In this document: positions 3,188-18,374 of the stretch, piece after piece
How positions within the stretch are numbered: position 1 is the first letter of the stretch
How the letters are laid out: each line of letters opens with the position of its first letter
Assembly (NCBI RefSeq): GCF_001428895.1
Contig: NZ_LMJA01000028.1
Location: 129,972 to 193,971, forward strand
Reading direction: 5' to 3'
Source: Mycobacterium sp. Root265
Lineage (GTDB): Bacteria; Actinomycetota; Actinomycetes; Mycobacteriales; Mycobacteriaceae
DNA: 64,000 bases
The notes under the pieces: model-generated
Seen by the model: the letters and a program-made list of their open reading frames with translations, nothing else
Database searches by the model: none
Told to the model about the DNA's origin: nothing
Translations under genes and position numbers: made by a program

Positions 3188-3925
3188 TCATCCGGACCCG
3201 ATGATCGTGTTCACCAGATCCAGCGTCGACTGCGTGGCCGCCGTCAGCGCCCGGCGGCCGGAGTCGTCGAGTGTGCCGCACACCCAGTCCCAATGGGCGG
3301 TGACGATGTCACCGGGCTCGGGTGCCCCCGATAGCGATGTACCGTCCCTCGTCCACCGCACCCGTTCGGGACGCGCGCTGTCCAGAGCCAGCCTGCCCGC
3401 ACCGTAACCGACGGGTCGTGAGCTGATCGTCACGTGCTCACCCGCGATGGATTCGACCGTTCCCCAGCGGATACGGCAGTTCTGCATGACGCGAAGGGGG
3501 ATCACCGGGTCACGGTCCAGGAACCGCACCCACGGGTAGACGGCGAAAACGTGAAAGCTGTGGTGCGCCAGCACACCGCGCTGATCGGTCAGGTCCGGCA
3601 GCAGCCCGGTGACCTGGCCACCGAAGGCGATGCGCAGTCGGCGCAACAGTCCGTCGGGATCGACCCGGAGCAGCAGGTCGCTTCCCACCCAGTAGCTGCG
3701 GACGACGTCCTCGTCGAGTGGGTCATCGCATCCCGCGGCGTCGGCGATGGCCCGCAGGTACGGCCAGACGCCATCGAAGCCCGTCGCGTGCGCGCTGATG
3801 GCGGCGGCGTCGTCGGCGCGCAGCAGCACCGCCGGATCTGTGGGGCCGCAGTAGCCGAGTTCGTTCGGTGGGTAGGCATACCGCGCGAACAACGCGTGTC
3901 CGGCCGGCACCTGAGTGGTGGTCAT
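3188..3925 (-). CDS. DUF6390 family protein, hydrogenase-locus associated
   Basis: A 245-aa protein with no signal peptide or membrane segment. The N-terminal LFARYAYPPNELGYCGP and the FHVFAVYPWVRFL stretch are the recognisable parts; I know the first as typical of DUF6390, a family found in actinobacterial hydrogenase clusters. No biochemical role is established. It follows hypE with no spacing (hypE stops at 3926, this gene starts at 3925), so it is the last gene of the hydrogenase operon and probably serves maturation or electron transfer rather than general metabolism. That role is inference from position. Confidence 0.72.
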   Translation of the reverse strand: MTTTQVPAGHALFARYAYPPNELGYCGPTDPAVLLRADDAAAISAHATGFDGVWPYLRAIADAAGCDDPLDEDVVRSYWVGSDLLLRVDPDGLLRRLRIAFGGQVTGLLPDLTDQRGVLAHHSFHVFAVYPWVRFLDRDPVIPLRVMQNCRIRWGTVESIAGEHVTISSRPVGYGAGRLALDSARPERVRWTRDGTSLSGAPEPGDIVTAHWDWVCGTLDDSGRRALTAATQSTLDLVNTIIGSG

Positions 3926-4987
3926 TCAGCAGATCCTGGGCAGTTGCTCACCGACCGGCAGGTCCACCACCCTGGTGCCGCCGAGCGCGGTCCGCGCGAC
4001 CACGATGCCCGGATGCTCGGGCACGCAGCGGCCTATCACCGCGGCACGTGCGCCGAGCGGATGGTCGCGCATTGCGGCCAGCACCCGATCGGCATCGCCG
4101 GGCGGCACGAACGCCAGCAACTTGCCCTCATTGGCCACCTGCAGCGGATCCAGGCCGAGCAACCCGCAGGCGTCGCGTACGTCAGCCGGGATCGGGAAGG
4201 TGCGCTCATCGAGTGCGACGCCCACCTGCGCGGCCTTCGCGATTTCGTTCAGCGTCGAGGCCACCCCGCCGCGTGTCGGATCACGCAGGACGTGCAGGTC
4301 CGCGCCGGTGTCCAGCATGGTCGCCACCAGACCGTGCAGGGGCGCGGTGTCGCTGGTCACGGTGGTCGCGAACGCCAGCCCTTCGCGGCAGCTCATCACC
4401 GCTATCCCGTGCACGCCGATATCGCCGCTGATGATCACCACGTCATCGGGCGCCGCGCGCTGCGGACGGATATCGGCGCGGTCGTCGACGATGCCGATCC
4501 CGGCAGTGTTGATGAACACGCCATCACCGTGGCCGGAGTCGACGACCTTGGTGTCACCGGTCACCAGTTTCACGCCGGCCGCCAGCGCGGCGGTACCGAG
4601 CGCGTGCGCCACGTGGGCGATGTCCTGCAGGGCGGTGCCCTCCTCCAGGATGAACGCCGTCGACAGGACCAGCGGGCGCGCGCCCGCCATGGCGAGATCG
4701 TTCACGGTCCCGTTGACCGCCAGGTCCCCGATGCTTCCACCGGGAAACGTCAGCGGCTTGACGACAAACGAGTCGGTGGAGAATGCCAGCCGGGTACCGC
4801 CGACCTCGATCACCGCCGCGTCACCCATCGCGGCGTCGGCGGCGGTTCCGAAGGCCGGCAGGAACAGGTGCTCGATCAACTCGGCCGACATCGCTCCGCC
4901 GCCACCGTGCCCCATGACGATGTTCGGTGCGTCGCGCAGCGGTGCCGGGCACACCCACGACTCGAGGTCGATGGACAGGTCAGGCAT
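3926..4987 (-). CDS. hypE: Hydrogenase maturation protein HypE
   Basis: HypE (353 aa) dehydrates the carbamoyl group that HypF places on its C-terminal Cys, giving the thiocyanate that becomes the CN ligands of the NiFe site. The invariant C-terminal PRIC is present, ending in the acceptor Cys. The N-terminal half has the PurM/AIRS-type fold: a GHGGGG motif near residue 27 and ATP-binding features such as GDTKVV and DPTRGG. Length is normal for the family. It overlaps the end of hypD by 8 bases and is followed at once by the DUF6390 gene. Confidence 0.95.
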
Positions 4988-6080
4988 GGGTCACCTCGAG
5001 TCGCCGGTACAGGTAGTACGCGGCACAGGCCCCTTCGGACGAGACCATCGTCGCGCCCAGGGGATTACGCGGGGTGCATTCGCGGCCGAAGGCTGCGCAC
5101 TCATGCGGTTTGATGAGGCCCTGTAACACCTTGCCGGACTGGCAGATCGCCGACTCGGCAGTGTGGATTCCGGTGACCGAGAACCGGTGCTCGGCATCGA
5201 AATCCCGGTAGGCGGGCGCCAGGCGCCAACCGCTGCGCGGAATCATGCCGATTCCGCGCCACGTGCGGTCGGTGACCTCGAAGACGTCTGCCAGCATTGC
5301 CTGGGCGGCGACATTGCCCTGGGACTGCACCGCGCGCGGATAGGCGTTCTCCAGTTCGTGGCGACCGGATTCCAGCTGGATCACCGTGCGCCGGATACCT
5401 TCCAGGATGTCCAGCGGCTCGAACCCGGTGACCACGATCGGGATCCGGTACTTCTCGGTGAGCGCCGGGTACTCGCCGGTGCCCATCACGCAGCAGACGT
5501 GCCCGGCCGCGAGAAACGCCTGCACCCTGCACGTCGGCGATTCCATGATGGCGGCGATGGCGGGGGGAACCAGCACATGTGACACCAGTAGCGAGAAGTT
5601 TCTGATGCCGAGCCGATCGGCCTGGTACACCGTCATGGCGTTGGCGGGTGCAGTGGTCTCGAATCCGATACCGAAGAACACCACCTGCCGATCGGGGTTC
5701 TCGCGGGCGACGGTCAGCGCGTCCAGCGGGGAGTACACCACCCGGACGTCACCGCCCTCGCTCTTCACTCGGAACAAATCCTTTGCGCTGCCCGGTACCC
5801 GCAGCATGTCGCCGAATGAGCAGAAGATCACCTCGGGCCGGGCGGCGATCTCCAGCGCCTTGTCGATCATCTCCAGCGGAGTCACGCACACCGGGCAGCC
5901 GGGGCCGTGGATCATCTCGATCTCGTCGGGAAGCAGCTGGTCGATACCGTGTCGAATGATCGAATGTGTCTGCCCGCCACAGACTTCCATGATCGACCAG
6001 CGTCGGCTGGTGGCGGTGCGGATCTGCTCGACGAGCTTACCGGCCAGCTCGGGGTTGCTGAATTCATCCAGGTACTTCAT
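4980..6080 (-). CDS. hypD: Hydrogenase maturation protein HypD
   Basis: HypD (366 aa) is the iron-sulfur scaffold that with HypC assembles the Fe(CN)2CO unit. The conserved motifs are visible: [11 protein letters not shown] near the N-terminus, [10 protein letters not shown], a middle [10 protein letters not shown], and the C-terminal Cys cluster region ending around [13 protein letters not shown] that supports the 4Fe-4S cluster. Length is typical. Its ATG overlaps the stop of the second hypC by 4 bases, and its 3' end overlaps hypE, an order (hypC-hypD-hypE) seen in many hyp operons. Confidence 0.95.
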
Positions 6081-6361
6081 GACGTCACTCCCGCCTGTCT
6101 TGCCGCGATCTCGAATCCGTCACCGAACTCCTCCTTGAGCACGCCGAGATGCTCGAATTCGGCCAGCGTCCTTTTCGCGGACTCCTCATCGAGGCGCTGG
6201 ATCGCAAATCCGACATGGACGACGACATACTCACCGACGGCCGCATCGGGGATGTACTGCAGGCACACGTCCTTCTGGATGCCGCCGAAATCGACAAGTG
6301 ACATCAGGGTGCCGTCCCGGTCGGCCAGACTCAGGATCTTTCCTGGAACCGCCAAACACAT
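6077..6361 (-). CDS. hypC: HypC/HybG-type maturation chaperone (copy next to hypD)
   Basis: A 94-aa protein beginning MCLAVPGKI. The essential Cys at position 2 binds the iron of the nascent cofactor and contacts the large subunit. The ATG at 6361 is set by this invariant N-terminus; upstream in-frame sequence is not part of the family. The protein is longer than the first HypC of the locus, with a C-terminal extension through residues 70-94 ([13 protein letters not shown]). Its direct coupling to hypD suggests it is the HypD partner, the other copy perhaps acting in delivery to the large subunit. That division of labour is inference. Confidence 0.92.
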
Positions 6362-6377
6362 GGGTGTCCTCCATCTC

Positions 6378-8660
6378 TCAAATCGAGTTCCCCACCAGCA
6401 GCTGACCGAGGGCGATACCGCCATCGTTCGGCGGCACGTGGCGATGCGTGATGGTGTCGAAACCTTTCGCGGCCAATGCATCCAGGGTGAGCCCCAGCAG
6501 GAGCGCGTTCTGGAACACACCTCCGGAGAGCGCGATGGTGGGTGAGGCGCCTGGTGTGCGCAGCGCCAGATCCACGATCAGGTCGGCGACCGACCGGTGG
6601 AACCGTGCGCCGATCATGCCGGCGGGGACACCGGCCCGGGTGTCGGCGACGACGGCGGCCAGCACCGGGGCCGGATCGATGACGACAGGGTGGCCTGCCG
6701 CGATCGAGAAGCGATAACTGGTTGTGTCGCAGTCGATACCGCGAGAAATTCCCTCGAGTTCGATCGCGGCCTGGGCCTCGTAGTCCACCACCTGGCGCAG
6801 CCCGACCAGGGCGGACACCGCATCGAACAGCCGGCCCATGCTGGAGGTCTGAACGCATCCGAGTCCGGTCTGCACCTGATGAGCGAGCACGTCGCGTTCG
6901 TCCTGCGGGCAGGCCCGCACCGGGGCCAGGTCGTGGTCCCAGGGCAGGCCTGCAGCCCACAGGTGCGTCATGGCCATCCGGTACGGGCGCAGCACGCTGA
7001 CATCACCGCCGGCCAGTGGCACGTATCGCAGCTGGGCCACCCGTCGGTAGCCCTTGTAATCGGCGAGGAGCACCTCGCCGCCCCAGATGGCGCCGTCTGG
7101 GCCGTAACCGGTTCCGTCGAAGGCGAATCCGAGTACCTGCGCGGTACCGTCCAGGCCGTGCTCGGCCATCACCGCCGCGATGTGGGCATGGTGGTGCTGA
7201 ACGGTCCGCACCGGCCGTCCCGCGGCGTGGCGGCGCGCCCACGCGGTCGACCGGTAGCCGGGATGCGCATCGGCCACCATGACTTCGGGAGTGACGCCGG
7301 TCAACGCCCGCAGATGGCGTTGCGCCGCATCGAATGCGTTCAGCGTCGCCAGATCGTCCATGTCGCCGATGTGCTGACTCAACCAGGCATATCTTCCCTC
7401 GGCGACGGCCAATGTGTTCTTCAGATCGGCCCCCACCGCCAGGGTCGGTGGAACGGAGACCGGCAGTGCCACCGGGAGTGGGGCGTAACCGCGGGAGCGG
7501 CGCAACGGTATCTGGAGCTCTCCCAGCACCCGGACCACCGAGTCGTCGCAGGGCACCAGGATCGACCGGTCGTGCGCCAGCCAGCCGTCGGCGAGCGGCG
7601 CGAGTCGGTTCACGGCATCGTCATCGGTGAAACAGATCGGCTCACCGCCCAGGTTTCCCGATGTCATCACCAGCACGGCGGGTCCCGGCTCGTCATCAGG
7701 CAGCCCGAACAACAGTGTATGCAGCGGTGTGTAGGCCAGCATCACGCCGAGGTCGGGGAGATATGGCGCCACGTTGTCGGCGACCGCGGCTGCGGGCCGG
7801 CGCGGCAGCAGCACTATCGGGCGTTGCGGACCGGTCAGTATCCGTTCGGCTGCAGTGTTTACGTCGACGATCGTGCGCCCGGCCGCCAGATCGGCGACCA
7901 TCACCGCGAACGGTTTGTCACCGCGGCGTTTTCGGGTACGCAGGTCGCCCACCGCCGAGCCGTTGGCCGCGTCGCAGGCGAGGTGATAGCCGCCGATACC
8001 CTTGACGGCGAGGATCCCGCCACGACGCAACAGCTTTCGCGCCTCCCGCAGACCCACCTCACCGTCTGCGCGATGACCGTCACCGTCGTGAAAGCTCAGC
8101 GTCGGTCCGCAGCCTGGGCAGCAGACCGGCTGGGCATGAAAACGACGGTCGCCGGGGTCGGCGTACTCTCGCGCGCATTCGGCACACATCGGGAACGCGG
8201 CCATGGTGGTCGCGGCGCGGTCGTAGGGCAGCGACGCGATGATGGTGAATCGCGGGCCGCAGTTGGTGCAGTTGACGAAGGCATGCCGGTACCGCCGGTC
8301 GGCGGGATCCCGTTGTTCGGCGGCGCAGTCGGTGCACATCGCCACATCGGGGGACACCAGGGTGCGGCCCCCGTCGGATCGGGACGTGTCCGCGATCGCG
8401 AAACCGGTACCCCCGCGCAGCGGAAGGTCCTGCGTCTGAAGCGTTTCGACGACGGCCAGCGGCGGCGGTCGGTCCCGCAGCCGGTCCAGGAACTCCCCGA
8501 TGTCGTCGGCGTCGCCTTCCACATCGATGACCGCCCCAGAACTGTCGTTGCACACCGATCCGGCCAGGCCCAGTGTGGCCGCGGTGGTGTAGACGAACGG
8601 CCGGAATCCGACGCCTTGGACCACGCCGTGCACGCAGACACGCAGCCGCCGGCGGGTCAT
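6378..8660 (-). CDS. hypF: Carbamoyltransferase HypF
   Basis: HypF (760 aa) makes carbamoyl-adenylate from carbamoyl phosphate and ATP and carbamoylates HypE, the first step of CN-ligand synthesis. All domains are in order: an N-terminal acylphosphatase domain (VVQGVGFRPFVY), two zinc-finger units with CxxC pairs (CTDC, CTNC, CAEC, CPGC) at about residues 108-185, a YrdC-like domain, and a Kae1-like C-terminal half with VQHHHAHIAAVM. Length is normal. Its start overlaps the stop of the upstream hypC by 4 bases; the second hypC follows 16 bases downstream. Confidence 0.96.
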   Translation of the reverse strand: MTRRRLRVCVHGVVQGVGFRPFVYTTAATLGLAGSVCNDSSGAVIDVEGDADDIGEFLDRLRDRPPPLAVVETLQTQDLPLRGGTGFAIADTSRSDGGRTLVSPDVAMCTDCAAEQRDPADRRYRHAFVNCTNCGPRFTIIASLPYDRAATTMAAFPMCAECAREYADPGDRRFHAQPVCCPGCGPTLSFHDGDGHRADGEVGLREARKLLRRGGILAVKGIGGYHLACDAANGSAVGDLRTRKRRGDKPFAVMVADLAAGRTIVDVNTAAERILTGPQRPIVLLPRRPAAAVADNVAPYLPDLGVMLAYTPLHTLLFGLPDDEPGPAVLVMTSGNLGGEPICFTDDDAVNRLAPLADGWLAHDRSILVPCDDSVVRVLGELQIPLRRSRGYAPLPVALPVSVPPTLAVGADLKNTLAVAEGRYAWLSQHIGDMDDLATLNAFDAAQRHLRALTGVTPEVMVADAHPGYRSTAWARRHAAGRPVRTVQHHHAHIAAVMAEHGLDGTAQVLGFAFDGTGYGPDGAIWGGEVLLADYKGYRRVAQLRYVPLAGGDVSVLRPYRMAMTHLWAAGLPWDHDLAPVRACPQDERDVLAHQVQTGLGCVQTSSMGRLFDAVSALVGLRQVVDYEAQAAIELEGISRGIDCDTTSYRFSIAAGHPVVIDPAPVLAAVVADTRAGVPAGMIGARFHRSVADLIVDLALRTPGASPTIALSGGVFQNALLLGLTLDALAAKGFDTITHRHVPPNDGGIALGQLLVGNSI

Positions 8661-8893
8661 TCGCCGCTGCCCATCAGTTTCAGGCCGTGCAGCGCCGCGG
8701 CAGCCCCTGCCGCGTCGGTCTTCTCGAGCACGAAGCCCATGTGGATGATCACCCAGTCGCCGGGACCGAAGGTTTCCCCGGGCAGCATGCCGATGTTCAC
8801 CTTGCGCGCCTCACCGGCCACGTCGACGAGTGCAAGCTGATCGCCGTAGCCGTCGAGCATCCCGATGACTCGACCCGGTATCCCCAGACACAT
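8657..8893 (-). CDS. hypC: HypC-type maturation chaperone (copy before hypF)
   Basis: A 78-aa protein starting MCLGIPGRVIG with the essential Cys2, followed by the usual small beta-barrel sequence and the GDWVIIHMGFVLEK strand. It lacks the C-terminal extension of the other HypC in this locus. It lies between the maturation protease (3-base gap) and hypF (4-base overlap). Two HypC paralogues in one operon suggest separate jobs, for example one with HypD and one with the large subunit, as reported for HypC/HybG pairs elsewhere. Which does which cannot be read here. Confidence 0.93.
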   Translation of the reverse strand: MCLGIPGRVIGMLDGYGDQLALVDVAGEARKVNIGMLPGETFGPGDWVIIHMGFVLEKTDAAGAAAALHGLKLMGSGE

Positions 8894-8896
8894 CGT

Positions 8897-9391
8897 TCAG
8901 CCCACCAACTCGGCGATGACGCGTTCGACGGCATCGACCGCGGTCGCAACGGCGGCGGCCACCGGTGGGGACAGACCGATACCGTCATCGGTGCTGCCGG
9001 CCTCGCAACCGACGACCACCGTGCGCGGTGCGGTGCCGCCGAGCGCAGTGAGGCTGGCGAACACCGTGGCGGGATCCATCGCATGTGCATCCAGACCCAC
9101 GGCTGCCGAAAGTGATTCGTGATCGGCCTCGAAGACATGCACGGTCCCCGGTGCGCCGCGATTGGGTAGTGCGTCGACAAGGACCACCGCGTCCCATCCG
9201 TCGAGCAGGTCATAGGCCAGGTGCATACCCCGGATGCCATAGTCGACCGGACGCACACCCGCGTGGTCGCAGCGGACATGGCGCAGCACCGCGGACCCGA
9301 ACCCGTCGTCACCGAGAAAGATGTTGCCGATCCCGGCCACCAGAATCTGTGGCGTGACGGCGCCTCCGTCACATCCGCCGTATGCGCACAT
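8897..9391 (-). CDS. HyaD/HycI-type hydrogenase maturation endopeptidase
   Basis: About 164 aa. The core begins ILVAGIGNIFLGDDGFG, the classic protease motif whose Asp (GDDGFG) binds nickel in the precursor; a second metal ligand region is DYGIRGMHLAYDLLDGWD. The enzyme clips the C-terminal peptide of HhyL after cofactor insertion. HhyL here ends with 22 residues beyond DPCLPCGVH, the expected substrate. The start is taken as ATG 9391, giving a 15-residue lead (MCAYGGCDGG) and a 23-base overlap with the small DUF6893 gene. The start is uncertain because no other start codon lies close to the conserved core. Confidence 0.88.
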   Translation of the reverse strand: MCAYGGCDGGAVTPQILVAGIGNIFLGDDGFGSAVLRHVRCDHAGVRPVDYGIRGMHLAYDLLDGWDAVVLVDALPNRGAPGTVHVFEADHESLSAAVGLDAHAMDPATVFASLTALGGTAPRTVVVGCEAGSTDDGIGLSPPVAAAVATAVDAVERVIAELVG

Positions 9392-9488
9392 AGCGTCGTG
9401 CATCCGGGATCGAACGAAGTCCGAGCACTGCTCCGGCAATCACCACCACCGCGGCGGCCGCCACGGCCACCCATCCCACTACTTCCAT
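9369..9488 (-). CDS. 39-aa single-pass membrane protein, DUF6893-like
   Basis: This frame, below usual gene-calling size, encodes 39 residues: one hydrophobic helix (about residues 3-24, Val/Ala-rich, start MEVVGWVAVAA) and a basic amphipathic tail ending RRYVRIRRM. The pattern and the C-terminal RYxRIRRM phrase match my memory of DUF6893, tiny actinobacterial proteins. Its ATG lies inside the last codons of the upstream 442-aa gene (10-base overlap) and its end overlaps the start of the protease gene, so translation is probably coupled. A likely role is to anchor a soluble component of the hydrogenase at the membrane; this is inference. Confidence 0.72.
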   Translation of the reverse strand: MEVVGWVAVAAAAVVVIAGAVLGLRSIPDARRYVRIRRM

Positions 9489-10807
9489 TTCGGGTTCCCT
9501 TCGATCAGCGGTTCGACTTCGTCGGGTGCGAAGTACAGATAGCGGCCGTACCAGTCGTGCAGGTCGGCGGCCGGGTCGTCCTCGAGCACGACTCCGATCT
9601 GCCGGTCACCGTCCACGGTCTCGTGCACCGAGGTGACGCGCGCGATCCGGTCGGCGAAGAAGATGTCCTGTGCGTCGGCGCGCCGCGACGGCCGCAGCCG
9701 GACCCGGCTGTCGCGGCTCAGCCGCACCCCGTTCACCAGTACCGCGTCGTTGCCGGGGTCGACGGCACTGTCCGCCAGGGGATCCCACCAATCCACTCCG
9801 TCGGGGACCTCCGGTATCAGACCCGGGGTTTCGGCATGCGGGTCACGGAGCACGCCGTGCAGGTTCAGCAGGGCCTCCGGTGACATCGCGTCGCATCGGT
9901 CGATGAGCTGTGCAGCCAGCGGATCGGTGGCTCGGGCCTGGGCCTTCTCGTCGTCGGTCATGGTCATCACCCGCAGTGTCAGGATCTCGTCGATCTCGGT
10001 CGAGTCGTAGAGGGCCCCGTGGCTCTGTTCGGCGATCTCGGGGTGGTCGTAGAGGATGATCGGCGACACCAGCACGACGGACGTATCGCCGGGCGGACCG
10101 GCCAGCACCGGGAAGCAGCGGTGTTGCCGGCAGCGGCCCACCGCATCGGCGGCCCAGGCCGGCGGCTCCAGTAGCGAGACGAACTCACCGCCGTGGGCCC
10201 GTGCGATCAGGTGGGTGCCGATCAGGGAGGTGGCGATGGCGTGTTGCTTGTTGGCCGGAGGCGCGCCGACATTGCGAACGGACAGCATGATTCGCCGCAG
10301 GCCGTCCGCCGGTTCGGTCCGCACCGTCAGTTCGGCGCGCAACTCCTCGCGGGTCCGGACCAACCGGCCGCCGGGAACCCGCTCGGTGTCACGGCCGCCG
10401 GCCACGACGAGCGGAACCGTCTGGGTGGCGGCGAGTGCGTCGAACGGTCCCGACGACACCTCGCACTCGACCGCCTCGTCCCAGGTGAGCCAGGTCCGGT
10501 CGGCCACGGTCAGCTCACCGACCGGCGTGAACCCGCCGTCCACCTCACGCTGGACCGCACGGTGCTGCAACTGCAGGAACCGCACCACGATGCTGAACGA
10601 CGCATCAGGCGCGGGCCGCATCAGCAGCTCGGTGGCGAGCGTGTCGTCCTCGCCGACGCCGCGGTCTGCGGCCTGCGGCGGGCCAACCACCCCGAACTGC
10701 CAGCGGGACTGGTTCTTTCCCGATGTCGCCCGATAGGGGTAGAGCAGGTAACCCTCGTAGAGCACCGCGTCGGCGATGGCCCTGACCCGGTCGCTGACGG
10801 CGTTCAT
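9479..10807 (-). CDS. Hydrogenase-locus protein of unknown function (442 aa)
   Basis: A 442-aa soluble protein, no signal peptide or membrane helix, with few cysteines and no recognisable metal-binding motif. The N-terminus has VLYEGYLLYPYR and SRWQFGVVGPP; the C-terminal third has a possible small beta domain around VRLRPSRRADAQDIFF and HDWYGRYLYFAPDEVEPL. I recall similar unnamed proteins beside group 1h hydrogenases of Streptomyces and mycobacteria but cannot assign a family. ATG 10807 overlaps the DUF6084 stop by 4 bases, and its 3' end overlaps the 39-aa membrane protein gene. Coupling to the structural genes argues for an assembly or electron-transfer role. Confidence 0.7.
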   Translation of the reverse strand: MNAVSDRVRAIADAVLYEGYLLYPYRATSGKNQSRWQFGVVGPPQAADRGVGEDDTLATELLMRPAPDASFSIVVRFLQLQHRAVQREVDGGFTPVGELTVADRTWLTWDEAVECEVSSGPFDALAATQTVPLVVAGGRDTERVPGGRLVRTREELRAELTVRTEPADGLRRIMLSVRNVGAPPANKQHAIATSLIGTHLIARAHGGEFVSLLEPPAWAADAVGRCRQHRCFPVLAGPPGDTSVVLVSPIILYDHPEIAEQSHGALYDSTEIDEILTLRVMTMTDDEKAQARATDPLAAQLIDRCDAMSPEALLNLHGVLRDPHAETPGLIPEVPDGVDWWDPLADSAVDPGNDAVLVNGVRLSRDSRVRLRPSRRADAQDIFFADRIARVTSVHETVDGDRQIGVVLEDDPAADLHDWYGRYLYFAPDEVEPLIEGNPKWK

Positions 10808-11442
10808 CGGTAGTCCTCGGCGGGGTCCAGCAGCGCGGTCACCGCGTCGTCCAATCCCAGCATGCCGTGCGCGGACTTGTAGGCGACGAGGGCATCGACG
10901 GTGTCATGGTTCAGCCGCACCCAGCCGGTGTTCGGGAAGTGAAGCTCGATGAGGTGACGCCATACCGAGACGGGCATGTCGTAGCGGTCCTCGCGGTCCC
11001 ACGGGATCTGCTGGACGGCGAAATTGTTGCGGCCCTTCGTGAAGACCGTCCCGCTGAACAGGAACTGCAGTGGGATGCTGCCGTCCCGCAGGGCGTGGAG
11101 ATACTTGGCCGCTGTGACCTCGAAATCGTAGGTGCAGACCAGCGGCAGCTCCACCTGCGTGGCGCCCACGAATCCGGGCACCATGGCGCTGGTGTGCTGC
11201 CACAGGAAGGTGTGCTGGGTCGTGCTCCACCGCTCCCTGCTGCCGAACAGGTCCAGCAGGGCGGCCGCCTCGTCGTCGGTATAGCCGCGGCGCAGCGGTT
11301 CGATACGCACCTGGCAGCGCAGCGCGATGGCGTGCACCGGCTCGTCACCGATGGCCGCGATCCCGAGCCGTGCCATCAGCAGCGGTGTGACCGCGTAGGG
11401 CTCGGGAGCCACCGCGAGCACCGCGAACGTCACGTCACTCAC
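10804..11442 (-). CDS. DUF6084 family protein, hydrogenase-locus associated
   Basis: A 212-aa soluble protein from a GTG start at 11442 that overlaps the DUF5947 stop (GTGA). Recognisable stretches are VHAIALRCQVRIEPLRRGY and FLFSGTVFT, which I associate with DUF6084, a family of hydrogenase clusters in Actinobacteria. It looks rich in beta-strand. An upstream in-frame ATG exists but would run deep into the DUF5947 gene and lacks family sequence. No enzymatic motif is visible. Strict co-occurrence with DUF5947 and the hybrid NifU/Rieske protein suggests one functional module. Confidence 0.75.
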   Translation of the reverse strand: MSDVTFAVLAVAPEPYAVTPLLMARLGIAAIGDEPVHAIALRCQVRIEPLRRGYTDDEAAALLDLFGSRERWSTTQHTFLWQHTSAMVPGFVGATQVELPLVCTYDFEVTAAKYLHALRDGSIPLQFLFSGTVFTKGRNNFAVQQIPWDREDRYDMPVSVWRHLIELHFPNTGWVRLNHDTVDALVAYKSAHGMLGLDDAVTALLDPAEDYR

Positions 11443-12071
11443 GGCACGACCACCTTGCTGCGGGTGCCGATGCGGTCGAAGAACTCGTCGAGAAATCGGC
11501 GCACCTGCTGGCCACCGTCGAATCCGTGCCACAGCAGCCGTAATCGGCCGACGAACTCATAGCAGGCGTCGACGGGCACCAGGAAACACTCGGGCGGTCC
11601 GTCGTGCTCGTCCGGCACCCGCATGATGAGCGCCTCGGTGTCGTCGCAGAGCAGGTCGACCCGCGGGTCCGCGGCGCGGATCTGCTCCCAGGAGGTCAGG
11701 TCCAGTTCGGATTCCGTGGCGCCGGCCGGACCGGGATAGAACGCCACAGTCCGGCCGAGAGCGGAGTTGCAGAAGAAGAACGCCAGCCCCACCGGGATCT
11801 GCAACAGGTCCCATTCGCGCCGGCCGAGCGCGAAGTCCGGGAAGGCGAGGTACCGGTCCGGCACCGCGCGGTAGCGCAGTGTGGCCCGGTCATCGGTGAA
11901 CAACAGGTAGCAGCCGCGGCACACACACATCAGTTGCCGGCCTTCGAGATTGACCACATGCTGATGTTCGTCGGCGATCTGTTCCGAGCACATCTCGCAG
12001 CGTTCGCCGGCCGCGGCGGGCTCCGAGCGGTTGGCGCGGATCCGCGCCAGCACATCGTAGGCGCCGGTCAT
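11439..12071 (-). CDS. DUF5947 family protein with cysteine cluster, hydrogenase-locus associated
   Basis: A 210-aa protein starting MTGAYDVLARI at ATG 12071, which overlaps the stop of the NifU/Rieske-like gene (ATGA). Near the N-terminus there is a cysteine cluster: CEMC, then about 25 residues later CVCRGC, able to bind zinc or an Fe-S centre. The phrase FFCNSALGRTVAFYPGPAGA is typical of DUF5947. No membrane segment is seen. An in-frame ATG far upstream is rejected because it lies wholly inside the preceding gene. A metal-binding accessory role for hydrogenase assembly or electron transfer is plausible but unproven. Confidence 0.78.
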   Translation of the reverse strand: MTGAYDVLARIRANRSEPAAAGERCEMCSEQIADEHQHVVNLEGRQLMCVCRGCYLLFTDDRATLRYRAVPDRYLAFPDFALGRREWDLLQIPVGLAFFFCNSALGRTVAFYPGPAGATESELDLTSWEQIRAADPRVDLLCDDTEALIMRVPDEHDGPPECFLVPVDACYEFVGRLRLLWHGFDGGQQVRRFLDEFFDRIGTRSKVVVP

Positions 12072-12988
12072 GGCACACCCGCGATGGACAGCACGCCGTC
12101 GCGTACCAGCAGCGGTACCGGCTCGAGATGCACTGCCGTGTCGATACCTGCCCCGGCATGAACGATGTCGAAGTGCGCATGGCAGAGGGGGCAGCGCAAC
12201 ACGGGGCCGGCGGAACCCAACCGGCGGTGCAGTGCGGCGCCCGCCAGCGAGTCGCCACAGTGCCCGCATCGGTCCCGGTAGGCGAACAACTCGTCACCGA
12301 CCCGGCAGACCAACAGGTTCGCGGTGCCGATCCGGAAGCCACCGACCTCACCCGGCATGAGGTCGGCGAGCCCGGGCGCCGGATGCCAGACGGTCGCTGG
12401 CTGGCCGTTGCGGTGGATGCGGCTCAGCAGTGACTCCGCCGGGATCACCCCGGCTGCCGGTGCGGCGTCGGCGGGCACCACGTCGATTCGGGTGACTTCC
12501 GGGGCTGCCGCGCCGATGGCGTCCTCGACGGTGAGTTCCAGTGTGATCGCCGAGGAGGGGCAACTTTTGCAGCTGCCCGCGAACTGTAACCGGACAGTCG
12601 CACCGTCGGGACCGTCGTCGATGCCGAGCAGGGTGACGTCGCCACCGTGGGAGCCGAGATAAGGCCGGACCCCGGCCAGGGCATCCTCGACGCGTCGGGT
12701 GATGTCATGTGGATGGAGCCCATGCACGAGCAGCAGGCTGGCGATCAGGTCGTCGGCGGCGAAATCCTCGGTGAGCGTGGGGTGCGCGGCGGTGGTCAAT
12801 GTCAGGATATGTTGCAGTGCAACACCGTACAGGTCGGTCACCTCACCGACCAACTGTTCCGCGCGGGTGCGTGCCGTGGTTCCGCCGGCCGCGCTGGCGT
12901 CGAGCAACGTCTGTATCCGGTCGCCCGCCGTGCGCCAATGCGCGTCGTCCTGGGTTACCTCGGGGTGTGACAATCCAGGCGGACCCAT
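12068..12988 (-). CDS. NifU C-terminal-like / Rieske-like hybrid protein
   Basis: A 306-aa protein in three parts: a helical N-terminal region (1-95), a NifU C-terminal-type domain with C140-K-S-C143 (about 96-172), and a Rieske-type fold (about 195-300). The Rieske part has C241-G-H243-C244 and C266-P-L-C269-H270. Aligned to a standard Rieske motif (CxH...CxxH), the last ligand position is Cys269 instead of His, while Cys244 makes a second CxxC. It could be a variant 2Fe-2S centre or a four-Cys rubredoxin/zinc-type site. It starts 4 bases after hhyL and is a likely electron acceptor or Fe-S carrier for the hydrogenase. Confidence 0.85.
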   Translation of the reverse strand: MGPPGLSHPEVTQDDAHWRTAGDRIQTLLDASAAGGTTARTRAEQLVGEVTDLYGVALQHILTLTTAAHPTLTEDFAADDLIASLLLVHGLHPHDITRRVEDALAGVRPYLGSHGGDVTLLGIDDGPDGATVRLQFAGSCKSCPSSAITLELTVEDAIGAAAPEVTRIDVVPADAAPAAGVIPAESLLSRIHRNGQPATVWHPAPGLADLMPGEVGGFRIGTANLLVCRVGDELFAYRDRCGHCGDSLAGAALHRRLGSAGPVLRCPLCHAHFDIVHAGAGIDTAVHLEPVPLLVRDGVLSIAGVP

Positions 12989-12991
12989 CGG

Positions 12992-14788
12992 TTAGTCCCC
13001 GGTGGCGGACTGGGTGGGGGAGTGCAACCGCTCCAAGGATTTTCCGTTGCCCAGGTACATGTGCACACCGCAGGGCAGGCACGGGTCGAAGCTTCGCACC
13101 GTGCGCATGATGTCGATGCCCTTGAAATGCTCCCGGTCGTTCTCCTCGAAGATGGGCTGACCCTGTACCGCGTCCTCGTAGGGGCCCGGGGTGCCGTAGC
13201 TGTCCCGGGGATTGGCGTTCCACGGTGTCGGTGGATACGGATGGTAGTTGGCGATCTTGCCGTCGCGGATCACCATGTGATGGCTCAGCACGCCGCGCAC
13301 GGCCTCGGTGAACCCGCAGCCGATGGCTTCATCGGGCACGTCGAACTTTTCCCAGGTCTTGGTGCGGCCTGCGCGGATCTCGACGAGGGCCTTCTCGGCG
13401 AAATGCAGTGCGGCGGCGGCCGCGTAGGCCTGGAAGTAGGTACGGGCACGGTTGCGTTCGATGGTGTTGCTGCCGTGCCGGGGGATCTTCCATTCCAGCT
13501 CGACCGGTCCCTTGAGGATGGTCTTGGGCAGGTTGATCTGCACGCTGTGCCCGGTCGACTTGACGTAGCCGATGTCGACCAGTCCGGCCAGCGCGGTCGA
13601 CCACAGCCTGGCCAGCGGACCGCCTCCGGTGTCCAGTGCGAGGTGGTCCTTGCCGTCGAACCAGCGCGGTGACATCACCCAGCTGTACTTGTCTTCCATG
13701 TCCCGCTTCTGCGGGTGCGGGTTGGTGTGCTGGTTCCATGGGTGCCGGCGGTCCACCGGGTTACCCAGCGGATCGTTGTGCACGAACGTCTCCTGGTCGG
13801 TCCAGTCGTCGTAATACGAACTGCCCAAGAGGATCCGGATTCCGAGATTGATGTCCACCAGCGAGTGGGTGACCAGCTTGCCGTCGACCACCACACCCGG
13901 GGTCACGAACATCGCGTCGCCCCAGCGCTCCATGTCCTTGTAGGCGAAGTTGCACACCTCGGGGTCCTGGAAGGAACCCCAGCAGCCGAGCAGCGTGCGG
14001 CGTAGCCCGACCTGCTCGTACCCGGGTAGTGCCTCATAGAAGAAGTCGAACAGGTCGTCGTGCATGGGGACGACCTTCTTCATGAACTCGACATAGCGCA
14101 TCAGCCGGGTCATGTAGTCGGTCATCAACTGGATGGTGGCGACGGTGCCGACACCGCCGGGGTACAGCGTGGACGGATGGACGTGCCGGCCTTCCATCAG
14201 GCAGAACATCTCTCGTGTCCAGCGGCTGACCTGCAGCGCCTCGCGGTAGAACTCTCCGGTGAACGGGTTGAGTGAGCGCATGATGTCGGCGATGGTCCGA
14301 TAGCCGTGTGCATCCGAGTTCGGCGCGCGCGTGTTCTCGGCCTTGGCCAGTACGCTCGGATTGGTCTCGGCGACCATCTTCTCGCAGTAGTCGACCCCGA
14401 CCAGATTCTCCTGAAAGATGTTGTGGTCGAACATGTATTCGGCCGCCTCGCCGAGGTTGACGATCCATTCACCGAGATGTGGCGGCTTCACGCCGTAGGC
14501 CATGTTCTGGCAGTAGCACGAACAGGTGGCGTGGTTGTCACCGCAGATCCCGCAGATGCGGCTGGTGATGAAGTGGGCGTCGCGCGGATCCTTGCCCTTC
14601 ATGAAGATCGAGTAGCCGCGGAAGATCGACGACGTGCTGTGGCATTCCACCACCTCACGGTTCTCGAAATCGATCTTGGTGTAGATGCCCAGGCTGCCGA
14701 CGATCCGGGTGATCGGGTCCCAGGCCATCTCCACCAGCTGGCCGGGTTCGCGCTTCACCTGTGACGGTTCCGGAATGGTCGTTGTCAT
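12992..14788 (-). CDS. hhyL: [NiFe]-hydrogenase large subunit, group 1h (HhyL)
   Basis: A 598-aa catalytic subunit. The L1 motif RICGICGDNHATCS gives C79 and C82; the L2 motif DPCLPCGVH gives C570, C573 and H576. These four Cys hold the NiFe centre. The 22 residues after H576 are the peptide removed by the maturation protease. The motif wording matches group 1h (formerly group 5) enzymes, which oxidise H2 at trace concentrations and feed the respiratory chain in persistence. It follows hhyS by 23 bases and precedes the NifU/Rieske hybrid by 3. No export signal is present, so it acts in the cytosol or on the inner face of the membrane. Confidence 0.96.
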   Translation of the reverse strand: MTTTIPEPSQVKREPGQLVEMAWDPITRIVGSLGIYTKIDFENREVVECHSTSSIFRGYSIFMKGKDPRDAHFITSRICGICGDNHATCSCYCQNMAYGVKPPHLGEWIVNLGEAAEYMFDHNIFQENLVGVDYCEKMVAETNPSVLAKAENTRAPNSDAHGYRTIADIMRSLNPFTGEFYREALQVSRWTREMFCLMEGRHVHPSTLYPGGVGTVATIQLMTDYMTRLMRYVEFMKKVVPMHDDLFDFFYEALPGYEQVGLRRTLLGCWGSFQDPEVCNFAYKDMERWGDAMFVTPGVVVDGKLVTHSLVDINLGIRILLGSSYYDDWTDQETFVHNDPLGNPVDRRHPWNQHTNPHPQKRDMEDKYSWVMSPRWFDGKDHLALDTGGGPLARLWSTALAGLVDIGYVKSTGHSVQINLPKTILKGPVELEWKIPRHGSNTIERNRARTYFQAYAAAAALHFAEKALVEIRAGRTKTWEKFDVPDEAIGCGFTEAVRGVLSHHMVIRDGKIANYHPYPPTPWNANPRDSYGTPGPYEDAVQGQPIFEENDREHFKGIDIMRTVRSFDPCLPCGVHMYLGNGKSLERLHSPTQSATGD

Positions 14789-14811: not shown

Positions 14812-15867
14812 CTACCAGGTGCGGGTCGCTCCCGTTTCGAGCGTTGTGCCCCGGTGCCGCCAGCGTGGTTCCCGGTCCAGGGTGTGTTCGGTGATATGTC
14901 GCAGGCTGCGGACGACCGACCCGTACACGCCCGACGCCGCGGTGGAGACCTTGCCGCCCGGGGGCTCGTCCATGAACGGCATGAACTTGTCCGGGAACCC
15001 CGGCATGGTGCAGCCGATGCAGATTCCGCCGACGTTCGGGCAGCCGCCGATACCGTTGATCCAGCCTCGCTTCGGCACGTTGCATTTCACGACCGGGCCC
15101 CAACAGCCAAGTTTGACAATGCATTTGGGTGAACCGTATTCGTGGGCGAAGTCGCCCTGTTCGTAGTATCCGGCCCGATCACAGCCCTCGTGCACCGTGG
15201 CGCCGAACAGCCATTTGGGCCGCAGTGCCTCGTCGAGCGGAATCATCGGTGCCTGGTCGGTGGCCATGTACAGCAGATAGGTCAGCGTCTCCGACAGGTT
15301 GTCCGGCTGGATCGGGCAGCCCGGGACGCAGACGATGGGGATACCGGCCTTGCTCTTCCACTCCCAGCCGAGGTAGTCGGGTACTCCCATTGCCCCGGTG
15401 GGGTTACCGGCCATCGCATGGATACCCCCGTAGGTCGCGCAGGTGCCCACGGCGACCACTGCGGTCGCCTTGGGGGCCAACCGATCCAGCCATTCGCTGG
15501 TCGTCATCGGTTGTCCGGTTGCGGGGTCGTTGCCGAACCCGCACCAATAGCCGTCGGCATGCAGTTGTTCGTTGGGGATCGATCCCTCCACGACCAGCAC
15601 GAACGGCTCCAGTTCACCCCGGTCGGCGCGGAAGAACCATTCGAGGAAGTCGTCGGCGCCGCCGTTGGGTCCGCACTCGAAGTCGATCAGGGGCCAGTGC
15701 ACGGCGATCTTGGGCAGACCGGGAAGCGCGCCGAGCGCGATCTCCTCGATGCTGGGTTGGGTGGCGGCAGTCAACGCCACGGAATCGCCGTCGCAACTCA
15801 GGCCGGCGTTGATCCAGAGCACGTGAATCAGCGTCTCTTCTGCTTTGACTGCTGCCGAAGTGGGCAT
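14812..15867 (-). CDS. hhyS: [NiFe]-hydrogenase small subunit, group 1h (HhyS)
   Basis: A 351-aa electron-transfer subunit. The proximal cluster motif is CDGDS (C25, D28) instead of the usual CxxC, so Asp replaces one Cys; this is the 3Cys-1Asp ligation reported for the actinobacterial-type hydrogenase of Ralstonia eutropha and is diagnostic for group 1h. Further Cys ligands occur in GTCATYGG, VPGCPIQPDNL and the C-terminal cluster region (CNVPKRGWINGIGGCPNVGGIC is split across two clusters). There is no Tat signal, unlike periplasmic group 1 enzymes. A GGAAAG ribosome site lies about 9 bases before the ATG. It is the first gene after a 139-base leader with repeated elements. Confidence 0.95.
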   Translation of the reverse strand: MPTSAAVKAEETLIHVLWINAGLSCDGDSVALTAATQPSIEEIALGALPGLPKIAVHWPLIDFECGPNGGADDFLEWFFRADRGELEPFVLVVEGSIPNEQLHADGYWCGFGNDPATGQPMTTSEWLDRLAPKATAVVAVGTCATYGGIHAMAGNPTGAMGVPDYLGWEWKSKAGIPIVCVPGCPIQPDNLSETLTYLLYMATDQAPMIPLDEALRPKWLFGATVHEGCDRAGYYEQGDFAHEYGSPKCIVKLGCWGPVVKCNVPKRGWINGIGGCPNVGGICIGCTMPGFPDKFMPFMDEPPGGKVSTAASGVYGSVVRSLRHITEHTLDREPRWRHRGTTLETGATRTW

Positions 15868-16006: not shown

Positions 16007-16795
16007 TCAATGGATCCGGTGACCCATTGGCAGCTGTGCGCTCAAGCTGTCCCGGGCCGAGTCGATCCACCCATACCAGGACGCCATACCCGCACCCGTG
16101 GCCGCCGACAGCAGCAGCACATCCACATCCGGGTTAACCGAGCGGACCGCGTGCTGAAACACATCCAGGTCGAAGTCCACATGGGGCAGTAGATCCAGCT
16201 TGTTGACGATGACCAGACCTGCAGCAGCGAACATGTGCGGATACTTCAGCGGCTTGTCCGCACCTTCGGTGACCGATATGACCACCACCATGGTGCGTTC
16301 GCCGAGGTCGAACAATGCCGGGCAGACCAGATTGCCCACATTCTCGATGAACAGCAGCGAATTCGGCTCGGGTTCCAGGGAATTCAGCGCATCATGGACC
16401 ATCTGCGCGTCGAGATGGCAGCCCGCCCCGGTGTTGATCTGCACCGCACGTGCGCCCGCGGCCCGAATGCGCTCGGCGTCGAGCAGGGTTTCCTGATCGC
16501 CTTCGATCACGGTGATCGCCCGGCCTGTGGTCAGCAGCTCACGGATGGTGCGCTCCAAGAGCGTCGTCTTGCCGGCACCCGGCGAACTGGTCACATTGAG
16601 TGCCACGATGCCGCGTTCGGCAAGCCGGCCCCGGTTCTGCCCGGCGAGCTGATCGTTCTTCGCCAGCACCTTCTGTTCGAGTGAGACGGTCTCGGTATGT
16701 GGATGGTCGTGCGGGTGGTCGTGGGGATGGGGGTGGCCGTGACCGGGCATCGTGATGGTGGCCGTGTCTTCGCCGCAGCCGCAGGTAGCGCACAT
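16007..16795 (-). CDS. hypB: Hydrogenase nickel incorporation GTPase HypB
   Basis: HypB (262 aa) is the GTPase that delivers nickel to the large subunit together with HypA. The N-terminal MCATCGCGED carries the CxxCGC high-affinity nickel site, followed by a His-rich stretch with eight His between residues 19 and 33 that can store nickel. The P-loop SSPGAGKTTLLE, the switch region EGDQET, the nickel-site Cys/His in GAGCHLD and the NKLDLLP guanine motif are all present. It starts 1 base after the hypA stop and ends 139 bases before hhyS. Confidence 0.96.
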   Translation of the reverse strand: MCATCGCGEDTATITMPGHGHPHPHDHPHDHPHTETVSLEQKVLAKNDQLAGQNRGRLAERGIVALNVTSSPGAGKTTLLERTIRELLTTGRAITVIEGDQETLLDAERIRAAGARAVQINTGAGCHLDAQMVHDALNSLEPEPNSLLFIENVGNLVCPALFDLGERTMVVVISVTEGADKPLKYPHMFAAAGLVIVNKLDLLPHVDFDLDVFQHAVRSVNPDVDVLLLSAATGAGMASWYGWIDSARDSLSAQLPMGHRIH

Positions 16796-16796
16796 A

Positions 16797-17126
16797 TCAG
16801 CTCACTTCCATCGAGAGGATCTTCAGTTCGCGTCCGGCCAGTACCTCGACATCGGCGCTGCCGCAGCGGCACAGCAGGATGGGATCGACCACCGCGAAGT
16901 GCGTGCCGCAGGCGCGGCAATGGGCTGCGCCGGGTGGGATGGCGAGATCCAGGCGGGCGCCATCGGCGACGGTGCCTTCGGTGGCCAGGTCGAAACAGAA
17001 CCGCATCGAGTCGGGCACCACCGCGCACAGCGCACCGATCTCGACCTTGACACTGAGCACCCGTCGGCCTGCGGCGTGTTCACACACCGCGTCGACGACG
17101 CTCTGGGTGATTGCCATCTCGTGCAT
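16797..17126 (-). CDS. hypA: Hydrogenase nickel metallochaperone HypA
   Basis: HypA (109 aa) starts MHEMAIT; His2 is the nickel ligand and fixes ATG 17126 as the start. The zinc site is unusual: the first pair is CRAC as expected, but the second is LCRCG, a CxC where the family normally has CxxC. A shifted Cys may still bind zinc. The C-terminal EVLAGRELKILSMEV is typical. It is the first gene of the minus-strand hydrogenase locus and is divergent from recA, with 201 bases between them that hold the recA control region. Confidence 0.93.
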   Translation of the reverse strand: MHEMAITQSVVDAVCEHAAGRRVLSVKVEIGALCAVVPDSMRFCFDLATEGTVADGARLDLAIPPGAAHCRACGTHFAVVDPILLCRCGSADVEVLAGRELKILSMEVS

Positions 17127-17327: not shown

Positions 17328-18374
17328 ATGGCGCCACAGGCTCCTGATCGCGACAAAGCACTCGAACTGGCGATGGCCCAGATCGAAAAGAATTACGGCA
17401 AGGGTTCGGTGATGCGACTCGGCGACGAGGTGCGCCAGCCCATCGCGGTCATCCCGACCGGCTCCATTGCTCTCGACGTCGCGCTCGGCATCGGTGGGTT
17501 GCCGCGCGGCCGCGTCGTCGAGATCTACGGCCCGGAATCCTCGGGTAAGACCACCGTCGCACTGCACGCGGTGGCCAATGCCCAGGCCGCCGGCGGCATC
17601 GCCGCGTTCATCGACGCCGAGCATGCACTGGACCCGGACTACGCCAAGAAGCTCGGTGTGGATACCGATGCGCTGCTGGTCAGTCAGCCCGACACCGGTG
17701 AGCAGGCACTGGAGATCGCCGACATGCTGGTGCGGTCCGGCGCCATCGACCTCATCGTCATCGACTCGGTGGCCGCGCTGGTGCCCCGCGCCGAGATCGA
17801 GGGCGAGATGGGCGACAGCCACGTCGGCCTGCAGGCCCGCCTGATGAGCCAGGCGCTGCGCAAGATGACCGGTGCGCTGAGCAACTCGAACACCACCGCG
17901 ATCTTCATCAACCAGTTGCGCGAGAAGATCGGCGTGATGTTCGGCTCGCCCGAGACCACCACGGGCGGTAAGGCACTGAAGTTCTACGCCTCCGTGCGTC
18001 TGGACGTTCGGCGGATCGAGACCCTCAAGGACGGAACCGACGCCGTCGGTAACCGCACCCGCGTCAAGGTCGTCAAGAACAAGGTGTCGCCGCCGTTCAA
18101 GCAGGCCGAGTTCGACATCCTGTACGGCCACGGCATCAGCCGCGAGGGCTCGCTCATCGACATGGGCGTCGAGCACGGGTTCATCCGCAAGTCCGGCTCG
18201 TGGTTCACCTACGAGGGCGAGCAGCTCGGCCAGGGCAAGGAGAATGCCCGGAAGTTCTTGCTGGAGAACCCCGATGTGGGCAACGAGGTGGAGAAGAAGA
18301 TCAAGGAGAAGCTCGGCATCGGTGCCGTGCTGACTGCCGAAGATGACATTCTGCCCGCCCCCGTCGACTTCTGA
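17328..18374 (+). CDS. recA: Recombinase RecA
   Basis: A 348-aa DNA-dependent ATPase for homologous recombination and SOS co-protease activity. The Walker A motif is GPESSGKT (near residue 68), Walker B is in [10 protein letters not shown], and loop L2 surrounds [20 protein letters not shown]. The length is that of a mature RecA with no intein, unlike M. tuberculosis RecA. A GGAGAGG ribosome site precedes the ATG. Transcription is probably driven by both a LexA-controlled and a PafBC-type promoter. recX overlaps its 3' end. Confidence 0.98.

Follow-up and report, generated by a model that had tools for sequence, protein, structure and literature searches.

Group 1h [NiFe]-hydrogenases consume atmospheric H2 in soil, and their assembly, anchoring and respiratory link are unresolved, as excerpts of PMC6883350 state for electron transfer. 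The 64,000-nucleotide (nt) stretch of Mycobacterium sp. Root265 contig NZ_LMJA01000028.1 analysed here (the window) encodes such an enzyme, HhySL, and raises the question of what the uncharacterised genes beside it contribute. The original prediction combined five of them, encoding DUF5947, DUF6084, an unnamed protein of 442 amino acids (aa; P442), a 39-aa membrane protein and DUF6390, into a translationally coupled module of subunits, electron carriers or assembly factors. All five genes are present on the minus strand of the window, as is every other gene of the module (coordinates below are window positions), and the 39-aa protein carries the Pfam name DUF6893 (PF21833). Here we provide evidence that DUF5947, DUF6084 and P442 (the trio) are near-exclusively tied to group 1h hydrogenase, and we propose, with a probability of roughly 0.57, that the cluster is a biogenesis and attachment module for this hydrogenase and not a five-protein enzyme complex.

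Co-occurrence with group 1h hydrogenase

DUF5947 (210 aa, 11439..12071; PF19372, E 3.1e-71), DUF6084 (212 aa, GTG start, 10804..11442; PF19562, E 8.3e-96) and P442 (9479..10807; no Pfam family, best E 0.071) have, like DUF6390, one match apiece in the source genome, an assembly of 6.67 Mb in 30 contigs with a single [NiFe]-hydrogenase large subunit (two stretches, one gene). Their distribution was followed in 296 actinomycete genomes, 98 genomes of the window's genus and 72,556 plasmids; beyond Actinomycetota the sample consists of plasmid records, with Acidobacteriota, Chloroflexota and Verrucomicrobiota outside it. Among the 296 genomes, DUF5947 occurs in 26, DUF6084 in 27, P442 in 28 and DUF6390 in 19, and HhyL of at least 66% identity in 30, of which 24 have one long copy and six, among the matches listed, have it in pieces only (G028, G107, G130, G184, G227 and G270). 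The 24 genomes with long HhyL hold DUF5947 in 23 cases, P442 in 23 (in G103 and G124 in pieces only) and DUF6084 in 22, G128 and G171 lacking it. All three families are present in two of the genomes with HhyL in pieces (G028 and G270), and the contig of a third (G227) ends within hhyL. Three genomes without 1h HhyL carry members of the trio, namely all three in G189, whose contig ends at DUF5947, and DUF6084 with P442 in G216 and G290, whose contigs start 0.3 kb and 0.9 kb, respectively, upstream of DUF6084. DUF5947 was not found in genomes with only 36-44%-identical relatives of HhyL, such as G076, G081, G111, G141, G200, G236 and G289.

The genus sample gave the same picture, with HhyL in 57 and DUF5947 in 58 of the 98 genomes, all 57 being shared and 40 genomes having neither; the extra DUF5947 belongs to an assembly with 7% contamination (G350) and lies at most 0.4 kb from a contig end. 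HhyL is carried by 12 of the 72,556 plasmids, DUF5947 and P442 by the same 12, and DUF6084 by 10. In one genome (G324) both HhyL and DUF5947 are present twice, their copies sharing two contigs, and at a decayed 1h locus (L105 in G150) hhyS matches model residues 19-57 only, hhyL, DUF5947, DUF6084 and P442 were not found, and the membrane peptide, protease and hyp genes persist. When species genomes were scanned with an alignment of P442, at least 555 relatives were confirmed, and hhyL is present in 77 of the best 80 loci kept (L008-L087), an uneven sample in which 79 are Mycobacteriales by title; the three loci without it (L012, L052 and L087) begin at most 1.4 kb upstream of P442. The order hhyS-hhyL-hhyE-DUF5947-DUF6084-P442-protease is found also in beta- and alphaproteobacteria (L003 and L005). 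The predicted link of these three families to the hydrogenase is thus borne out by near-exclusive co-occurrence in two genome samples and the plasmids, together with conserved order. As a separate observation, three loci (L129 in G107, L131 in G184 and L132 in G130) hold hhyL remnants with no DUF genes adjoining.

Gene overlaps

The five genes had been described as stitched to hhyS-hhyL through overlaps of 4 to 23 nt. The chain is present from hhyE through the 39-aa gene, with 4 nt each at hhyE/DUF5947, DUF5947/DUF6084 and DUF6084/P442, 10 nt at P442/39-aa, and 23 nt between the 39-aa gene and the protease if the latter starts at 9391 (none with the model-chosen start 9340). It extends neither to hhyS and hhyL, which lie 23 nt apart with a further gap of 3 nt between hhyL and hhyE, nor to DUF6390, which abuts hypE without overlap. 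In relatives, with starts chosen by model and Mycobacteriales dominating the sample, overlaps were counted at hhyE/DUF5947 in 72/101, DUF5947/DUF6084 in 67/102 and DUF6084/P442 in 95/107 cases, and more rarely at P442/39-aa (36/82), 39-aa/protease (6/71), hhyL/hhyE (6/102) and hhyS/hhyL (0/104). Since four-base overlaps are frequent in high-GC operons (no baseline was computed here), the strong evidence for the module is its conserved order and co-occurrence.

Conserved residues of DUF5947 and HhyE

After cut and duplicate hits were dropped, 101 DUF5947, 103 DUF6084 and 102 P442 sequences were kept. In DUF5947, C25, C28, H36, H38, C49, C51 and C54 are invariant in all 101 and C170 is kept in 98, giving the pattern C25-x2-C28-x7-H36-x-H38-x10-C49-x-C51-x2-C54 of metal-ligand-type residues. 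Weak Pfam matches of the family are mostly zinc-finger-like (zf-HC3, E 0.0018 in 1/49; C1_1, 0.018 in 2/49), and to our knowledge the Cys/His spacing corresponds to no iron-sulfur (Fe-S) signature. Judged from these residues, DUF5947 is a candidate for a general metal site, either as assembly factor or as carrier.

The gene upstream, hhyE (12068..12988), encodes 306 aa with a NifU domain (Pfam E 3.9e-18) and a C-terminal Rieske-like/CxxC domain (Rieske, 9.7e-6) and three CxxC motifs. Excerpts of PMC6883350 put HhyE forward as an electron relay and name maturation as its other possible role. Among 102 loci, counted after dropping cut hhyE genes as well as L094 and L101, which are not 1h, 92 encode a long HhyE with two or three CxxC and 10 a short one; among the short forms, which still hold 1-4 Cys, a single HhyE keeps one CxxC and nine lack the motif altogether. 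The nine belong to Cupriavidus necator, Methylocystis, Streptomyces fungicidicus, S. cattleyicolor, G023, G128, G140, G171 and G376; Fe-S ligand cysteines are thus not conserved across all HhyE, and the lack of CxxC in several lineages speaks against HhyE being a general relay by way of these motifs. The DUF5947 residues persist at the CxxC-free loci; the fixed-spacing pattern fails for G140, whose DUF5947 (L112) is part of the alignment in which the seven columns are invariant.

Divergence and profile comparisons of the trio

Between the window and C. necator, HhyL and HhyS are 78% and 68% identical, DUF5947, DUF6084 and P442 36%, 40% and 34%, and the protease 42%, HypF 44%, HypD and HypE 52% and HypB 62%, so that the trio has diverged as fast as several maturation factors. 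No relative of DUF5947, P442 or DUF6084 with a solved structure came up in sequence searches, and the trio profiles found nothing when compared with HhyE, the protease and HhyS. The strongest signal in the 16 profile comparisons made in all, DUF5947 against the HhyE C-terminal CxxC region (hhalign probability 3.2%, E 0.014), is not significant. A hidden HypC domain in the C-terminal part of P442 was ruled out (probability 0.4%), and matches of P442 to Phage_TAC_7 were taken as noise (21/55 members, best E 0.0014; 13.6 bits for the window protein against a cut-off of 25). P442 is split into two reading frames in five loci (L114, L116, L117, L124 and L125), the second corresponding to the C-terminal part, which may be a separable domain. 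At another locus (L106 in G182) P442 was matched at model positions 3-247 only, with an internal stop, and no protease was found adjoining.

The DUF6893 membrane peptide

The 39-aa peptide (9369..9488; PF21833, E 4e-11) has one membrane helix predicted from hydropathy and a C-terminal tail DxxRYxxxxxM. Pfam DUF6893 is over cut-off in 25/296 genomes; by coordinate comparison it lies at the module in 21 of the 28 P442 genomes, in G152 on a second contig beside the protease, and away from a 1h locus in G195, G214 and G269. The tail stands at the frame end in 102 of the 44,239 reading frames of all fetched loci. Of these 102 frames, 99 share the strand of the module and come from 98 of the 114 1h loci, proteobacterial ones among them, which upholds the predicted link of the peptide to 1h. 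Of the remaining three, one lies at the decayed locus L105, one on the opposite strand in L111 and one on a different contig of G189; the tail is absent from the 13 loci retrieved for a DUF6390 gene that lies away from 1h (L092-L104). A hydrophobic stretch (17-residue mean of at least 1.6) precedes the tail in 98 of the 99 peptides, and among the 83 peptides of 36-42 aa that served to build a hidden Markov model (HMM), mostly from Mycobacteriales, 82 end in [SA]xPDxxRYxxxRxM. The natural reading of helix and tail is a membrane anchor or docking tail.

The peptide lies between P442 and the protease in the window and other Mycobacteriales, and after the protease in many other lineages. The idea that C. 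necator, Methylocystis and S. fungicidicus lack it, and hence have a soluble enzyme, proved wrong, as it sits there after the protease as peptides of 33 aa (L003:15214-15315), 32 aa (L005:14995-15093) and 38 aa (L006:15171-15287); at all three plasmid sites no gene is listed in the PLSDB gene table, which is incomplete. Sixteen 1h loci lack the tail pattern (L004, L055, L106, L110, L114, L116-L122, L124, L125, L130 and L134); L055, L116, L117 and L124 still match the DUF6893 HMM, L134 does so weakly, and L110, L114, L122 and L130 end at a contig edge. In L112 (G140) two copies flank the protease, one on each side. In G195, a genome without a 1h HhyL match, a DUF6893 match at about 7780-7920 of L128 has a protease and a hyp run next to it; the structural genes may have been lost from this locus too.

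DUF6390 as a HypC-like protein

DUF6390 (3188..3925; PF19927, E 6.1e-88) had been counted with the 1h-specific families, and this part of the prediction is not supported, as 10 of the 19 genomes with DUF6390 are without 1h hydrogenase, the outcome that the prediction itself had named as a refutation, and the gene stands outside the overlap chain. All ten have PF00374 matches over cut-off, that is, another [NiFe]-hydrogenase. At 91 DUF6390 loci, mostly retrieved around 1h, the first gene upstream on the same strand that belongs to one of 16 families is hypD in 31, hypE in 22, hypC in 22, hypF in 6 and other or none in 10; in Sulfobacillus DUF6390 lies between hyp genes and a cytochrome-b-linked hydrogenase. 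The protein has an N-terminal domain and a HypC-like C-terminal domain (about residues 146-245). In hhalign the DUF6390 profile matched HypC with a probability of 78% and a score of 37.5 at full length, compared with at most 19.0 for 100 column-shuffled HypC profiles, and with 90% (E 1.7e-6) for the C-terminal domain, against which the best of eleven other families was HoxL, itself HypC-like, at E 0.0026. All 90 DUF6390 sequences compared keep Cys150 and His211; in a global alignment Cys150 pairs with HypC Cys2, and His211 aligns with residue 45 of 2z1c_A, a conserved HypC His. Sections of PMC8692609 and PMC11565642 propose that HypC Cys2 binds Fe(CN)2CO together with a HypD Cys, and His45 is named among conserved HypC residues in the latter. 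Pfam HupF_HypC is listed for 5/25 DUF6390 members (best E 8.9e-4, bit scores not shown) and not for the window protein, and two of three matches in a PDB profile search are HypC chains, both weak (E 0.49).

Like the HypC/HybG/HupF chaperone family, whose profile its C-terminal domain matches, DUF6390 keeps the Cys and the His; unlike that family it has 245 aa and an extra N-terminal domain with C26 and H122 (90/90) and H125 (89/90). DUF6390 is therefore, as far as profiles and residues tell, HypC-like and not a canonical HypC, and the likeness of its C-terminal half makes a role as hyp-linked cofactor chaperone or assembly factor probable. No statement of this likeness was found in a full-text literature library searched by the DUF family names. 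Reading frames labelled SIS (L043:14518-15342 and similar) have a C-terminal match to HypC, 50 of them at E of at most 10 (best 2.4e-5), and are possibly another HypC fusion in mycobacterial hyp operons.

A proposed module for assembly and attachment

The stretch 3188..12071, to which the prediction referred, also contains genes that it did not mention, namely a HycI-type hydrogenase maturation protease (8897..9391, start 9391 or 9340; TIGR00072, 2.4e-34; Pfam HycI, 1.5e-13), two hypC, hypF, hypD and hypE. The protease-adjacent paralogue hypC1 (8657..8893; Pfam E 8.3e-19) belongs to a clade that comprises 91/93 protease-adjacent, 0/94 hypD-adjacent and 2/9 other HypCs in a FastTree tree built without support values, and this clade of their own suggests a HypC dedicated to 1h. 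Gene order, co-occurrence, conserved residues, the profile match to HypC and the helix with its tail are observed; the biochemical roles that follow are all inferred. DUF5947, DUF6084 and P442 would be an assembly set dedicated to HhySL, with a job akin to that of HupG/H/I/J/K for group 1d, without detectable sequence relation; within this set DUF5947 would bind metal and most likely handle or protect the HhyS Fe-S clusters, and the protease and HypC1 would be dedicated partners for the Ni-Fe site. DUF6390 would be a hyp-linked factor common to other hydrogenases, and its C-terminal domain would, like HypC, work with HypD/HypE and use Cys150 and His211 to carry or accept the Fe(CN)2CO unit. 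The DUF6893 peptide would span the membrane once as an anchor and, through its basic tail, bring the hydrogenase or its assembly complex there. We prefer assembly because the trio diverges like several maturation factors and its chain leads to the protease and HypC1, and because the trio is without solved relatives and purified enzymes are two-subunit; with the HypC likeness of DUF6390, this narrows the predicted choice among subunits, electron carriers and assembly factors.

Several observations weigh against this proposal. The locus of G042 reads hhyL-hhyE-DUF6084 without DUF5947, its contig ending inside DUF6084, and in G290, which has DUF6084 and P442, no DUF5947 match lies in the 0.9 kb of contig upstream; DUF6084 is absent from four type-B loci (L004, L118, L119 and L134). 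Trio profiles compared with HoxO, HoxQ, HoxR, HybE, HoxV, HypA and HypC gave probabilities below 2% each (Hox profiles were built from 5-6 sequences; the control HoxL-HypC gave 99.5%), and without a match to known accessory proteins the term assembly factor rests on context. As for DUF6390, an HMM of its C-terminal domain, run on 39,134 reading frames with E of at most 10, reaches HypC only at E 0.12 or worse (matching 91 DUF6390, 53/198 HypC, 12 unassigned and 4 SIS-labelled frames), a HypC HMM picks 13/91 DUF6390 (best E 0.019), and the aligned Cys is internal, at residue 150, versus residue 2 in HypC. Finally, parts of PMC7174314 report that Methylacidiphilum fumariolicum, an oxidiser of subatmospheric H2, lacks homologues of the hypothetical proteins in the Pyrinomonas 1h operon; if the Pyrinomonas proteins are the same families, these are not universally required.

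Alternative explanations

Alternatively, DUF5947, with P442 and DUF6084, might be the physiological electron acceptor or relay from HhyS to the quinone pool, the trio then being part of the working enzyme. The five Cys and two His kept in 101/101 DUF5947, the strict co-occurrence of trio and 1h, and an HhyE without any CxxC in 9/102 loci, including C. necator, Methylocystis and several Streptomyces, fit such a relay, whereas the divergence of DUF5947 resembles that of several maturation factors, its weak Pfam matches are mostly zinc-finger-like and its spacing recalls no Fe-S signature known to us. PHG067, which by gene order is DUF5947, is proposed as electron acceptor in C. necator in excerpts of PMC6883350; on the other hand, 5aa5, the one close 1h structure that is solved, came up only by way of its HofK and HofG chains, and the purified Hyd-1h of M. 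fumariolicum gave two bands, HhyS and HhyL (sections of PMC7174314). Such a relay is possible, though we hold it doubtful. A wider version, which we consider unlikely, would make DUF5947 the general electron-exit protein of 1h, a new metal-site family (C-x2-C-x7-H-x-H-x10-C-x-C-x2-C) taking HhyS electrons across lineages, with HhyE Fe-S domains serving in some lineages only, P442 and DUF6084 as docking scaffold, the nearly universal 32-39-aa peptide as a quinone-pool tether and DUF6390 as a second, internal-cysteine kind of HypC.

The zinc-finger-like cysteines of DUF5947 would also suit a trio that regulates the hydrogenase operon or senses redox or metal state for it. This is very improbable, given that no regulator, sensor or DNA-binding family matched more than a single one of the 155 members scanned, with E never better than 0.035, and that the trio is fixed between structural genes and protease in type-A loci. 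That the trio merely hitch-hikes beside the hydrogenase without a role in H2 oxidation, as its fast divergence might indicate, is hardly credible, since it is kept with HhyL in actinomycetes and alpha- and betaproteobacteria, on chromosomes and plasmids, was duplicated with it in G324 (as far as DUF5947 is concerned) and was lost together with hhyL in G150, where hhyS is cut short.

Known systems and significance

The closest known system is the hofKG-PHG066-069 cluster of C. necator H16, which has the same order of small and large subunit, NifU-family protein, DUF5947, DUF6084, P442 homologue and protease, and like the window a peptide with the DUF6893 tail, there 33 aa and unlisted. It differs from the window in that the NifU-family protein is short and without CxxC, the peptide follows the protease and a SIS-domain gene lies between hypC and hypD; DUF6390 turned up neither in the 24.5 kb fetched nor when the plasmid was searched at protein level. 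Parts of PMC4377017 describe PHG066-069, the neighbours of hofKG, as proteins of unknown function, and MSMEG_2717 is related to PHG067 according to excerpts of PMC6883350. Group 1d hup/hox clusters (hoxMLOQRTV; hupDFGHIJK) likewise have a dedicated protease, a HypC-like protein and accessory genes after the structural genes, but the trio is without profile similarity to HoxO, HoxQ, HoxR, HybE and HoxV. The hhaABC genes of Thermomicrobium roseum, conserved hypothetical proteins of the hhyLS operon, have a similar position and are induced with hhyLS (sections of PMC6776052), a likeness by description.

The linkage of these genes is thus known in outline (parts of PMC6883350 and PMC4377017), and the present assignments were not found in print; a full-text literature search on the names DUF5947, DUF6084, DUF6390 and DUF6893 surfaced only aurodox work, excerpts of which (PMC9361827) annotate, as annotation only, a DUF6084 protein in the aurodox/kirromycin cluster (kirHIII). 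Genes tied to 1h are useful as markers and for heterologous production. A list of DUF names becomes separate testable claims, among them that HhyE iron-sulfur motifs are not general, that DUF5947 is a conserved metal-site candidate and that DUF6390 may be a HypC-like factor used by several hydrogenase groups; another is that 1h loci in two phyla share a membrane peptide of 32-39 aa for which three annotated plasmids list no gene.

Locus architecture and neighbouring genes

The complete order on the minus strand is hypA, hypB, hhyS, hhyL, hhyE, DUF5947, DUF6084, P442, DUF6893, protease, hypC1, hypF, hypC2, hypD, hypE and DUF6390. HhyS (14812..15867; phmmer to HofK of 5aa5, E 3.4e-163) and HhyL (12992..14788; to HofG, E 0) have C. 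necator HofK/HofG as closest solved relative by phmmer, and HhyL contains both group 1h motifs, L1 TSRICGICGDNH and L2 SFDPCLPCGVH. The remaining hyp genes are hypA (16797..17126, read from the sequence and with our own HMM), hypB (16007..16795), hypF (6378..8660), hypC2 (6077..6361; Pfam E 2.1e-25), hypD (4980..6080) and hypE (3926..4987). What look by eye like recA and recX adjoin hypA on the opposite strand (17328-18870).

In a second architecture (type B), P442-hhyS-hhyL-hhyE-DUF5947, DUF6084 is missing; this order is seen in S. cattleyicolor (L004), G128, G171 and G376, the last belonging to the window's own genus. On the S. fungicidicus plasmid p1 (L006) a large non-ribosomal peptide synthetase/polyketide synthase gene lies about 2.5 kb from the end of the 1h and hyp genes. 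NZ_CP012886.2, a plasmid of Mycobacterium intracellulare subsp. chimaera typed as mobilizable (L007/L145), carries the 1h module with a complex I (nuo) gene run within about 0.7 kb, and hyp genes, DUF6390, form I RuBisCO and CbbX some 40-50 kb away; the region looks like an island for H2/CO2 autotrophy.

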